The notes beneath the pieces were generated by a model. The model ran no database searches, was not told where the DNA came from, and was given only the letters and a program-made list of their open reading frames with translations. The translations under genes were made by a program, and so were the position numbers. This document shows positions 684 through 26,116 of a stretch of 43,609 nt of DNA, in pieces (the first letter of the stretch is position 1; the number at the start of each line of letters is the position of its first letter). This DNA comes from Chromatiales bacterium (GTDB lineage Bacteria > Pseudomonadota > Gammaproteobacteria > Chromatiales > Chromatiaceae), in the NCBI GenBank assembly GCA_030145485.1, contig JAQYVP010000037.1, positions 1 through 43,609 on the forward strand, in the 5' to 3' direction.

Positions 684-838
684 TTCTCGCCAAGGCGCTA
701 AGCTCGCCAAGAAAAACCTTTGCGTTCTTGGCCTACATGGATGTAGGTCAGGGGCGTAAGCAGGACGCGGAAGCTTTGCGTCTTAGCGAGAGAAAATGTT
801 TTTTTCATGCCTCGTCAGTCTGAGACATGGTCTCGCTA
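684..838 (+). repeat. Dispersed palindromic element A, copy 1
   Basis: It fills most of the 585-907 gap between htpG and pyrF; nothing else is evident in that gap. The element starts with tandem TCGCCAAG-like words, carries a perfect internal stem CCTACAT/ATGTAGG (735-750), and ends with words complementary to its start (CTTAGCGAGAGAA), so the whole unit can fold into a long imperfect hairpin. Three further copies lie at 16520-16690, 18603-18775 and, inverted, 25207-25375. No coding capacity is credible. It is probably a non-autonomous mobile repeat or a structured RNA. Confidence 0.8.
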
Positions 839-3930: not shown

Positions 3931-3938
3931 GAGATATT

Positions 3939-4020
3939 TAACCACGAAAGTCACGAACCACACGAAAAACCGGATCAATCAGTTTCATTTTTTTCGTGAC
4001 TTTCGTGATTTTCGTGGTTA
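3939..4020. terminator. Long palindrome between convergent genes, probable bidirectional terminator (element E)
   Basis: The left arm (3939-3970) has CACGAA at three positions spaced 9 nt; the right arm (about 3988-4020) is its near complement and ends TTTCGTGGTTA. It starts 8 bp after the SDR stop and ends 12 bp before the doxX stop, so it separates two convergent genes. It is related in design, but not identical, to elements B and C. The terminator role is inferred from position and stem strength. Confidence 0.6.
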
Positions 4021-4032
4021 AAAAGGTTTTGA

Positions 4033-4479
4033 TCAGCTCTTTAGTTTTTTGCTCCAGAAATAATCCACAGAGATCTTTTCAGGGCCAAACACAAAAATCA
4101 CACCCAGCATCACACCCCACACCGCATGCTGCATCGTTCCTGCAGGCGAGATATCCGGATAGGAGATTGCTGCAACGATGTTCAGTATAAACAGTCCCAG
4201 TGCAGCCGGACGTGTCAGCAGACCAAACACCAGCAACACCGGCAACAGAAGTTCTGCGCCCGTCGCCAGCCAGGCGGCAATCTCAGGTGATAGCACCGGA
4301 ACCGCATATTCATAGCGAAACAGATCCAGCGTCGTTGACCAGGTCTGGATTTTTGTCATACCGGAATCAAAAAAAGCCTTGGCGACCCACAGGCGAAAAC
4401 CCAGCAATAGCAAAGGCTTCAAAAGCAGATTCGTTGGCAGGCAGTCAGCCATTAAAAAATCGGATAGAAAATTTTTCAT
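4033..4479 (-). CDS. DoxX family membrane protein
   Basis: The 148-residue protein has four predicted membrane segments: about residues 18-38, 64-84 (EIAAWLATGAELLLPVLLVFGLL), 88-106 (LGLFILNIVAAI) and 115-134 (AVWGVMLGVIFVFG). The family features seen are RLWVAKAFFDSGMTKI and the GAELLLP segment. DoxX-like proteins are often the last gene of DUF2282/DUF692/DUF2063/DoxX operons linked to bufferins. Here it follows the DUF2282 gene directly, with only a 114-bp gap holding a hairpin. The biochemical role is unknown; a part in membrane redox or copper handling is inference from context. Confidence 0.85.
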   Translation of the reverse strand: MKNFLSDFLMADCLPTNLLLKPLLLLGFRLWVAKAFFDSGMTKIQTWSTTLDLFRYEYAVPVLSPEIAAWLATGAELLLPVLLVFGLLTRPAALGLFILNIVAAISYPDISPAGTMQHAVWGVMLGVIFVFGPEKISVDYFWSKKLKS

Positions 4480-4514
4480 TTCATTAGTCCCCTCTTCCGC
4501 ATGTTGTGATAAAC

Positions 4515-4567
4515 GGGGGACAGACCACGGTTTACTACGTAACCCCTTTTACCGTGGTCTGCCCCCC
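4515..4567. repeat. REP-like hairpin between the DUF2282 and doxX genes
   Basis: The arms GGGGGACAGACCACGGT (4515-4531) and ACCGTGGTCTGCCCCCC (4551-4567) form a 17-bp stem with one mismatch around a 19-nt loop. It lies where related operons usually carry the DUF692 and DUF2063 genes. It may be a REP-type mobile palindrome and may also attenuate transcription into doxX. Confidence 0.7.
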
Positions 4568-4593
4568 ATTTCCCTAACGGAAAAATTATTGAT

Positions 4594-4854
4594 TTATTTT
4601 TTAGCCGCTTTGACCTTGCCACCGACAAGCTTCGCACAGCTTCCCTCAGGAACGTAGACCCACTCCTCGGCATCACCATCAGCAGAAGACTGACCAGCAC
4701 AGGCGTGCTTGCTAGTGCCGCAATCATTCATGCCCGCTTTGACAATGCCCATGCACTTCTCCATGCCGGGCTTGCCGGCTAAGGCGCCTGTGGAAAGGCC
4801 AAGTATGAATGCGCCAGCGATAGCAGCCATTAACATCTTTTTGTATTGCTTCAT
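4594..4854 (-). CDS. bufA1: DUF2282 protein, bufferin-type (BufA1-like) copper-binding RiPP precursor
   Basis: The 86-residue precursor has a Sec signal peptide: basic MKQYKK, a hydrophobic core, and predicted cleavage after GALA near residue 26. The mature part has four Cys (34, 45, 52, 73) in the DUF2282 pattern [14 protein letters not shown]...[12 protein letters not shown]...GSC. DUF2282 proteins of the bufferin type are modified on Cys by a DUF692 (MNIO) enzyme with a DUF2063 partner and buffer copper in the periplasm. Neither partner gene is present in this window. The ATG has AGGA 7-8 nt upstream. The gene is divergent from the ECF sigma gene and has an ECF-like promoter. The DUF2282 call is strong; copper buffering is by family. 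Confidence 0.82.
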
Positions 4855-4954: not shown

Positions 4955-4984
4955 AGAGAACCTGCAAGATCATTATTTCTTACA
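4955..4984 (-). promoter_or_regulatory. Putative ECF-sigma promoter for the DUF2282-doxX genes
   Basis: Read on the minus strand, TGTAAGAAAT (4984 to 4975) is identical to the 10-mer upstream of the sigma gene at 5020-5029. A TCTCT-like -10 follows after a 16-17 nt spacer (about 4959-4955). It would give a leader of roughly 95 nt ahead of the DUF2282 gene. The perfect duplicate in divergent orientation is the main evidence; the -10 is weaker. Confidence 0.5.
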
Positions 4985-5019: not shown

Positions 5020-5048
5020 TGTAAGAAATCCTCCAACTTTATGTCTTA
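5020..5048 (+). promoter_or_regulatory. Putative autoregulated ECF-sigma promoter
   Basis: TGTAAGAAAT (5020-5029) is followed by TCTTA at 5044-5048, 16 nt after GTAAGAA. This resembles the -35/-10 layout of RpoE-type promoters (AAC-containing -35, TCTRA -10). It lies 37 bp before the sigma start codon. The identical 10-mer on the other strand suggests one regulator drives both directions. Confidence 0.55.
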
Positions 5049-5084
5049 TTATGCACAGGGCACTGATTGCCCGGGCAAGAGATT

Positions 5085-5600
5085 ATGATACTAGGCAAAC
5101 AAAAACGCTTTGAAGCACTGGTGGAGAACTACTCGACCGATCTGTTCAGATACGCATTGTGGCTCAGCCATGACAGACATGTCGCGGAGGATCTGGTGCA
5201 GGAGACTTTCACCAGGGCGTGGAAAAGCCTCCACCAACTCAAGGACAACAAAGCTGAAAAGGGATGGCTGACAACCATTCTGCGCAACGAAAACGCAAGG
5301 CGTTTTCAGCGTTTTCAGCCTGATCTCGTCGAGATCGAAAAAGTCCCGCTGAGTGCAAACCAGGATGATGAACCGGAAAAGAAATTGGAACGCCGGATTC
5401 TACGCAAAGCGATGCTGGCGCTGGATGAAAAATATCGTGAACCACTCATCTTGCAGGTGATTCACGGCTTCAGTTGCAAGGAGATTTCAAAGACCATGGA
5501 GATCTCAGAAAATGCAGTCATGACACGGGTTTTCAGGGCCAAGCAGCAGCTCAAGAGCGCCCTGACAGAAACTAACAGTTCAGTCGTAGTGAGGTTGTGA
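5085..5600 (+). CDS. ECF-family RNA polymerase sigma factor
   Basis: The 171-residue protein has only regions 2 and 4, as group 4 sigma factors do. Region 2 spans about residues 5-70 and contains HDRHVAEDLVQETFTRAW (core binding and -10 recognition). Region 4 spans about 110-160 and contains REPLILQVIHGFSCKEIS, then the recognition helix ISENAVMTRVFRAKQQL. I start it at the ATG at 5085 (MILGKQKRFEAL), with AAGAG just upstream, rather than the TTG at 5067. The downstream gene is a membrane anti-sigma, and GTG/ATG overlap suggests coupled translation. The likely signal is metal or oxidative stress, inferred from the divergent DUF2282 gene. Confidence 0.93.
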   Translation: MILGKQKRFEALVENYSTDLFRYALWLSHDRHVAEDLVQETFTRAWKSLHQLKDNKAEKGWLTTILRNENARRFQRFQPDLVEIEKVPLSANQDDEPEKKLERRILRKAMLALDEKYREPLILQVIHGFSCKEISKTMEISENAVMTRVFRAKQQLKSALTETNSSVVVRL

Positions 5601-5602
5601 AA

Positions 5603-6343
5603 ATGAACGAATTACAATTCAGAAAACAGTGCATTATCGATCCTGACACTGCTGAGATGGAATTTCAGCAGGCGCTGGAAACTGCTGATAACCGCGAGTT
5701 TCAGCAGCAGTGCATGGAGTTTGACGGCAAGTTGGCAGACGCGCTGAATGTTGCGGCGCCTGATGATCTTGCACAGCGCATCATTGAACGCAACAGCACA
5801 CAAAAAACGCAGCATTCAAGTAGCTTCAGCTGGAACAACTGGCGTCCGTCACTGGCTGCTGCAGCCAGTGTTGCTGCAACCATGGTGTTTGCCGTTGCAT
5901 TGCTGCTACGCCCTCAAGTCGCCCTGTCAGAGATGGTGATAGACCATCTCTACGATGACATCAACGCACTGCATGACCGCACCGTAGTCACCGACGCCGA
6001 GTTATCACACATACTGAATCACTTCGACGTCGAAATCGAGCGGACTTCCATCGGTACGCTTCACTTTGCCGATGTCTGCCATATCGATAAAACCGATGGA
6101 ATTCATGTCGTCTATGAGGGCGCCAAAGGACCTGTCACCGCCATCTATCTTCCCGGCAAAGAGGTCAAACGTCTGCAGGCCATCAGCAGGGATCAGTTTC
6201 AGGGCATCATCTTTCCCTATCAGGAAGGAGCCATGGCCATTATCGGACTCATGGGTGAAGACGTGCTGAAACAGAAAGAGAACGTAGAGAAGGCGCTGTT
6301 ATGGAAAACCGCTGACGACAAGATGCAGAAAACATCGGCATAG
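5603..6343 (+). CDS. DUF3379 family membrane protein, probable anti-sigma factor
   Basis: The 246-residue protein has a charged cytoplasmic N-terminal part (residues 1-85, ending IIERNSTQKTQ) and one membrane segment near 97-118 (LAAAASVAATMVFAVALLL). The C-terminal part (120-246) is predicted periplasmic, with FADVCHIDKTDGIHVVYEG. This matches DUF3379 proteins, found next to ECF sigma factors in Gammaproteobacteria. The ATG at 5603 lies 2 bp after the sigma stop, with GAGG upstream; a GTG at 5597 would overlap the sigma gene. No canonical HxxxCxxC zinc anti-sigma motif is visible. The anti-sigma role is inferred from topology and neighbour. Confidence 0.82.
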   Translation: MNELQFRKQCIIDPDTAEMEFQQALETADNREFQQQCMEFDGKLADALNVAAPDDLAQRIIERNSTQKTQHSSSFSWNNWRPSLAAAASVAATMVFAVALLLRPQVALSEMVIDHLYDDINALHDRTVVTDAELSHILNHFDVEIERTSIGTLHFADVCHIDKTDGIHVVYEGAKGPVTAIYLPGKEVKRLQAISRDQFQGIIFPYQEGAMAIIGLMGEDVLKQKENVEKALLWKTADDKMQKTSA

Positions 6344-6350
6344 TTTCTTT

Positions 6351-6398
6351 GCCCCCTGCCTCGAGGAGAGACGCAATGTCTCTTTTCGGGGCTTTTTT
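6351..6398 (+). terminator. Rho-independent terminator after the sigma/anti-sigma operon
   Basis: The outer stem GCCCC/GGGGC (6351-6355 with 6388-6392) encloses an inner stem AGAGAC/GTCTCT, followed by TTTTTT (6393-6398). It lies 8 bp after the anti-sigma stop. Confidence 0.8.
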
Positions 6399-6410
6399 AT
6401 GCCCCATTTT

Positions 6411-6690
6411 TACCACGGAACACTCAGACCACACGGAATAGTTTGAGCGCGATCAGACCTGCTGGTTGGCATACGCGGAGCACGTCCCACCATTCTCTGG
6501 TGCAATGCTCGGAGATTATTGACAGCCTATACGCTACAGGCCTGAAAAGAAATTAACCACAGATAGGATGGCATCTCTTCATCCTGTGTTTATCCGTGCT
6601 CATCTGTGGTTGAAAGGCTCGGTTGAGATGACAGATTATAAACAGGGTTTTATGCTCTTTTTTCCGTGTCGTCCGTGTGTTCCGTGGTTA
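6411..6690. repeat. Split palindrome of family C (copy 1) enclosing a family D hairpin
   Basis: The outer arms ACCACGGAACACTCAGACCA (from 6412) and the complementary words ending TTCCGTGGTTA (6661-6690) match the arms of the compact palindromes at 8916-8986 and 12202-12271. Here they are about 220 bp apart. The inserted DNA includes a family D hairpin at 6553-6612. The stretch fills the gap between the sigma operon terminator and glmM; no gene is seen in it. Confidence 0.65.
6553..6612. repeat. Family D hairpin nested in a family C palindrome
   Basis: The perfect 10-bp ends AACCACAGAT and ATCTGTGGTT enclose a small inner stem GGATG/CATCC. The same end words form the stem at 40712-40863. It has no coding capacity. 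Confidence 0.6.
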
Positions 6691-25206: not shown

Positions 25207-25375
25207 GTCTAGCGAGACAAAGTTTCAGACTGACAATGCATGAAAAAAATATTTCTCTCGCAAAGCTTCCTCGTCCTGCTCACGCCCCTCACCTGCATCC
25301 CTGCAGGCGAAGACGCAAAGTTCGCCAAGAAAAACCTTTGCGATCTTGGCGAGAGATTTCTTTAAAACTTGACTC
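25207..25375 (-). repeat. Dispersed palindromic element A, copy 4 (inverted)
   Basis: It lies between convergent holC and tsaB and fills the 25185-25396 gap. Read on the minus strand it follows copies 1-3, with one informative change: the inner stem is CCTGCA/TGCAGG instead of CCTACAT/ATGTAGG, so one A-T pair has become G-C and pairing is kept. It is the most divergent copy. A remnant of the GCAGTTGG repeat lies just left of it. Confidence 0.75.
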
Positions 25376-25396
25376 ATTTGTAAACATGTTGGTCTC

Positions 25397-26116
25397 TCAA
25401 GGATCACTAGTCGGTTTGCTGCAAACTGAAGAGTGCAAACTTTTTTTAGCCACGTTGTTTCTCAGATAGAGCGGCAGCGCTTGTGCAGCTATCACTGAGG
25501 CATCACCCTGTGAGAGTGCATGGGCGGCGATAAAGGCGACATCCTGCGCATGACAGTAGAGATGCGGAATCTGCTGCTCGAGCCAGGGTGACAGACGTTC
25601 CGAGAGCGCCTCCGCATAGGCGTCCCAACCGCTTCCGGCGCCGACCCAGCCCTCCTGCTGCGGTTGACTCACCTGCCCGGGAGCACACACCATCTCTTTG
25701 CCCTGCAACTGCATCACCCCGTCAGCATCAGCGGAACACAGCGCCCAGTAGACTTCATGCATACGCGCATCGAAGGCTGCGGCAACCTGCTGATGAGTGG
25801 TCGAGCGATAGACTCCCTGTGCCAGCGCCTGCAGAGAGGAGACTGGAACAACAGGAATATCGAGTCCGAAGCTGATACCCTGGGTCACGGCGGCGGCAAT
25901 GCGCACACCGGTAAAGGAGCCCGGGCCGCGGCCAAAGGCGATGGCGTCGAGCTGCAGTTTGCTGATGCCGCTCTCGGATATCAAGGAGTCGATCATCGGC
26001 AGCAGCAGTTCACTGTGGCCCCGTGGTTGTTCACGATACCTCTCCATGACATTGCCATCGCTCCAGATTGCAGCGGAGCAGGCAACTTCGGAGGTTTCAA
26101 TCGCCAGCAGATGCAT
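25397..26116 (-). CDS. tsaB: tRNA threonylcarbamoyladenosine biosynthesis protein TsaB
   Basis: The 239-residue protein starts at the ATG at 26116 (MHLLAIETSEVACSAAIW), the standard TsaB N-terminus; the frame runs further upstream, but only inside yoaA. TsaB is the ASKHA-fold partner of TsaD and TsaE in t6A37 modification of ANN-decoding tRNAs. LDAIAFGRGPGSFTGVRI near residue 65 is the most diagnostic segment. The start overlaps the yoaA end by 20 bp, the same neighbourhood as E. coli yoaA-tsaB. The C-terminus faces repeat element A. Confidence 0.96.
   Translation of the reverse strand: MHLLAIETSEVACSAAIWSDGNVMERYREQPRGHSELLLPMIDSLISESGISKLQLDAIAFGRGPGSFTGVRIAAAVTQGISFGLDIPVVPVSSLQALAQGVYRSTTHQQVAAAFDARMHEVYWALCSADADGVMQLQGKEMVCAPGQVSQPQQEGWVGAGSGWDAYAEALSERLSPWLEQQIPHLYCHAQDVAFIAAHALSQGDASVIAAQALPLYLRNNVAKKSLHSSVCSKPTSDP

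Follow-up and report, generated by a model that had tools for sequence, protein, structure and literature searches.

How does a bufferin-type precursor reach its mature form when its own locus carries no maturation genes? In characterised bufferins, an MNIO enzyme (BufB) and a DUF2063 partner (BufC) convert the two central cysteines into copper-binding thiooxazoles. The window analysed here, a stretch of 43,609 nucleotides from a Chromatiales bacterium, contains such a precursor gene. bufA1 (4594–4854, − strand) encodes 86 residues with a signal-peptide-like N-terminus and four cysteines, and matches the DUF2282 family PF10048 at 79.9 bits (gathering score 22.4). All four cysteines align with cysteines of DUF2282 relatives. 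The protein is of the bufferin-1 type and is not a BufA2, since it scores 25.7 bits against the NCBIfam BufA2 model NF050166, under the cut-off of 60. Downstream on the same strand, after a gap of 114 bp (4480–4593), lies doxX (4033–4479), which encodes a membrane protein of 148 residues of the DoxX family (PF07681, 61.8 bits, cut-off 23.6); its match to the HvfX profile is weak and below the cut-off (55.2 bits against 80). These family matches bear out the earlier note on this DNA, which had described a precursor and a DoxX gene on one strand in the usual order with both maturation genes missing. Neither an MNIO (DUF692, PF05114) nor a DUF2063 (PF09836) gene is found at the bufA1-doxX locus in four species. 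The observation that bufA1 and doxX stand next to each other without enzyme genes is thus confirmed. The locus is a two-gene bufferin module, divergent from an ECF sigma/DUF3379 gene pair, and this split module is genuine and conserved rather than a decaying remnant.

The divergent pair (5067–6343, + strand), on which the earlier note was silent, consists of an ECF sigma factor gene (5067–5600; Sigma70_r2 and Sigma70_r4_2 domains, NF009170 over its cut-off) and a gene for a DUF3379 protein, a putative anti-sigma factor (5597–6343; PF11859, 132 bits). In an alignment of the window's DUF3379 protein with 18 relatives, those beside bufferin loci have an invariant cysteine and histidine after a predicted membrane segment, which makes the role of an anti-sigma sensor plausible for the protein of the window. 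The family is likely one of anti-sigma factors that sense metals or redox state; no paper naming DUF3379 came up when a library of papers was searched by text. DUF3379 genes stand next to DUF2282 genes at L068, L074, L106, L108, L109, L111, L113, L115, L121, L124, L128, L130, L136 and L138, mostly with an adjoining ECF sigma factor gene. Two putative ECF promoters lie between the divergent genes, one for bufA1 (4957–4984, − strand; TGTAAGAAAT...GGTTCT) and one for the sigma gene (5020–5046, + strand; TGTAAGAAAT...GTCT). Both elements and their spacing are alike in four species, and the sigma/DUF3379 pair probably controls bufA1-doxX.

The gene order SDR, doxX, bufA1, sigma, DUF3379, without bufBC, is kept in three sister species (G002, G003 and G005). 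Each of them has one detectable MNIO gene, on another contig and after a BufA2 precursor gene, which lies between msrA and, where the contig goes on, ybeY. The block reads purD-vanZ-msrA-bufA2-bufB-bufC-ybeY in G005, where the NCBIfam models for BufA2 (101.9 bits, cut-off 60) and for the bufferin maturase MNIO_BufB (384 bits, cut-off 310) are both exceeded. DUF2063 sequence is detected in two of the three sisters, over the cut-off in G005 and as a partial match below it at a contig end in G003; the G002 contig stops within the MNIO gene. A bufA2 promoter-like element is conserved, with one match in each of four genomes, and bears only a loose resemblance to the bufA1 and sigma elements, a point against the trans reading set out below. 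The earlier note had left three options, namely that the enzymes are encoded elsewhere, that the peptide acts unmodified, or that the locus was reduced by a deletion; the MNIO genes on other contigs of three sisters make the first the best supported.

The window's own genome (G000; 93% complete, 260 contigs) was searched for DUF692 and DUF2063 genes as the earlier note had proposed. The assembly gave zero matches to PF05114 or PF09836, but its gap also takes purD. Likewise, a DNA search of this assembly with the G005 purD-ybeY block matched none of its coding parts (40 of 74 candidates scored; the picture is the same without the worst repeats), and the bufA2 promoter element is missing too. 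A contig of 3436 bp (C219) ends at the equivalent of G005 position 6027, ~400 bp short of the purD start. Because purD and the block that carries the enzyme genes in the sisters are also missing, the absence of MNIO and DUF2063 genes from this assembly is uninformative, and we discarded MNIO loss from this genome as evidence. We infer that the species of the window also has a bufA2BC operon, at a locus that is unassembled. A further genome of the genus, G001, also has no MNIO match, and its contig starts at the bufA2 promoter.

The type of the sister enzymes can be read from the region of the catalytic aspartate. MNIOs linked to BufA1 have E-W-D-[TNSAQ] at this site, those linked to BufA2 E-R-D-D, and those linked to EGKCG precursors E-R-D-F. 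In the 'Cys-Lys' (BufA2) enzymes, Asp replaces Phe at apparently the same site (PMC12668002). The MNIOs of G003 and G005, which are readable here, are of the ERDD kind. Therefore, maturation in trans would mean that a BufA2-type enzyme acts on BufA1. With this signature instead of EWD, the sister MNIO may be specific for BufA2.

A possible recognition element lies in the signal peptide, for which preliminary data support a part in BufB-BufC recognition (PMC12452194). The signal peptides of MNIO-linked BufA1 proteins share a motif like TA[LI]AGVLALGL. In an exploratory scoring, with related sequences left out of the motif model and the sets built after the pattern had been seen, the median was 14.2 bits for linked loci and 6.8 bits for split ones (p = 1.5e-5, kin counted separately); the window genus reached 13.2 bits and every other split locus stayed below 10. 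In the window genus the motif stands at the same distance from the start as in linked BufA1 (22 of 26 checked) and BufA2 (10 of 12). Between species of this genus the BufA1 signal peptide differs by at most one amino acid, against 2 to 9 codons that differ silently.

Taken together, the best-supported reading, to which we give about an even chance, is maturation of BufA1 in trans by the enzyme pair linked to BufA2. BufA1 has a Sec-like signal peptide and four cysteines, and in this genus bufB and bufC are away from its locus. The sole MNIO/DUF2063 pair would be the one encoded in the unlinked bufA2-bufB-bufC operon. We infer that this pair would recognise a signal-peptide motif shared by both precursors around A-[IL]-A and modify BufA1 in trans; mature BufA1 together with DoxX might then buffer periplasmic copper. 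More tentatively, and with roughly one chance in three in our estimate, one MNIO/partner pair may serve two bufferin families through the shared motif, so that bufA1-doxX operons could do without bufBC in several lineages; in some of these the BufA1 motif would then have eroded and the peptide have taken on an unmodified role.

The main rival, which we consider possible though rather unlikely, is that BufA1 lost its own BufB and BufC and acts unmodified. A plain four-cysteine peptide would be exported, bind metal through its thiols or form disulfides, and work with DoxX under the control of the ECF sigma factor. A wider set of 80 DUF2282 loci bears on this explanation. The split layout, in which doxX directly follows bufA1 without an MNIO gene, is present at 20 of the 80 and recurs in Gammaproteobacteria. 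Nine of these loci (L109, L113, L115, L122, L124, L128, L130, L134 and L136) form a tight clade, here called BB36-type, and most of them have divergent sigma/DUF3379 genes as in the window. In this clade, the signal-peptide motif is out of register and the region upstream of bufA2 is without the promoter-like element described above. The motif is degraded or shifted in most split lineages outside the window genus, and split BufA1 in general could be unmodified. The same rival is favoured by the three split genomes that show zero MNIO in their assemblies and by the fact that the only MNIO type readable in the sister genomes is the BufA2 type; it was also raised as an option for unlinked precursors (PMC12452194). 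However, the window genus retains the recognition motif in a signal peptide almost without amino-acid change, and DUF2282 without MNIO is very rare, at 21 of 4072 genomes (PMC12452194).

Across the survey, 16 of the 20 split genomes carry a BufA2-type MNIO in an unlinked operon, three have no MNIO in the assembly and one has another type. Among 35 control genomes in which bufA1 and an MNIO gene share an operon, 8 also have a BufA2-type enzyme (Fisher p = 6e-5, with related genomes counted separately and a few assignments in both groups based on incomplete genes or on nothing but the enzyme signature). A tree-based test of this association had too few independent contrasts once kinship was considered. 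Split loci are interleaved with linked ones in the tree of DoxX proteins, where supported branches force at least five changes in one direction or the other. Closely related operons with tandem bufA1 genes occur both with and without bufBC before doxX (L079, L099 and L102 versus L072, L088 and L103).

Another explanation places a cognate BufB/BufC pair of the BufA1 type elsewhere in the genome, in stretches that are unassembled in every draft of the genus. The genus genomes are all incomplete drafts, 56–93% complete, and a split Oleiphilus genome (G032) does carry an EWD-type MNIO away from bufA1. Against it, no EWD-type MNIO is found in six genomes of the genus, three of which hold a single MNIO, after a BufA2 precursor. 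We regard this explanation as improbable, at about one chance in seven.

The gap between bufA1 and doxX holds a palindrome (4511–4571) that forms a strong hairpin as RNA. Its arms (4511–4531 and 4551–4571) are 21 nt long and 90% complementary, and it folds much better than shuffled sequences do (z = -6.2). The 114-bp gap and the 17-bp stem given in the earlier note were both seen, the stem being the core of these longer arms. Its label 'REP-like' is fair in that other genomes of the genus also carry the core GGGGACAGACCACG (exact matches: 4 in G001, 2 in G002), but the window's own genome has only one exact match. The hairpin is common to G000 and G003; G002 and G005 carry a different strong hairpin in its place. 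Since the gene order is the same in the latter two, the layout is independent of the palindrome, and we rejected a deletion at it as an explanation. The earlier suggestion that the locus was reduced in this way finds no support, given a layout present in four species, two of them with the other hairpin, and sisters without enzyme genes at this site, which the same note had named as evidence against its idea, exist within the genus. Its notion of a decaying system fares no better: bufA1 is under strong purifying selection in the genus, with pairwise NG86 dN/dS of 0.00–0.04 (0.02–0.09 for doxX), and its four cysteines are unchanged. A remnant of a bufferin cluster, cut down at the palindrome, would be in keeping with the complete bufA1-bufB-bufC-doxX operon that adjoins DUF3379 in a member of the same family from a different genus (G009/L077), but it is very improbable given the selection on bufA1, the synteny, the gaps of G002 and G005 and the retention of the cysteines, promoter elements and motif.

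Some further features were seen along the way. In G009 (L037, 1001–1318), the sigma gene adjoining the complete bufA1 operon seems, as assembled, to be truncated internally. The window has a near-perfect inverted repeat of the ACCACGAAAGTCACGAA type (33-nt arms, 88% complementary) at 3937–4022, between its doxX and SDR genes, which resembles a small palindromic mobile element. A dispersed repeat of ~200 bp, TCTCGCTAAGAACGCAAAGGACGCAAAG..., occurs in the window at 25211–25404 (− strand) and 726–837 (+ strand) and in L033 at 6316–6530. Genomes of the genus together contain dozens of matches to it, and it is possibly a MITE.

The locus shares much with the Buf1 clusters bufA1-bufB-bufC-doxX, for example of Caulobacter vibrioides (PMC12452194), including the precursor family, four cysteines, a signal-peptide motif, DoxX and a nearby ECF sigma factor. 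In contrast to those clusters, it is without MNIO and DUF2063 genes, and its sigma partner is DUF3379 and not NrsF. Bufferin-2 operons of the bufA2-bufB-bufC type are the likely source of the enzymes in the sisters, although the peptide of the window is itself not BufA2. Precursors away from MNIO genes, and several precursors for one enzyme pair, are already in the literature. The same general situation, unlinked precursors or several precursors with one MNIO/PME pair, has been described, and the authors already proposed that one complex modifies such precursors or that they stay unmodified (PMC12452194). What sets the present case apart from those unlinked precursors is a recurrent syntenic bufA1-doxX pair, often with sigma-DUF3379, an MNIO that, where found, is of the BufA2 type, and the evidence from the motif. 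The recurrent gene order, the type of the accompanying enzyme, the link to DUF3379 and the signal-peptide test are added here.

With these results, two questions become open to direct test, namely whether a single MNIO/partner complex is able to mature precursors of several families and whether the signal peptide is the site of recognition. Lineages of the split kind that keep or lack the motif provide natural comparisons for this, and the related tandem-bufA1 operons offer a clean one for enzyme loss. In addition, doxX remains beside the precursor gene where the enzyme genes do not, and this suggests that DoxX works together with the peptide rather than in the maturation step.
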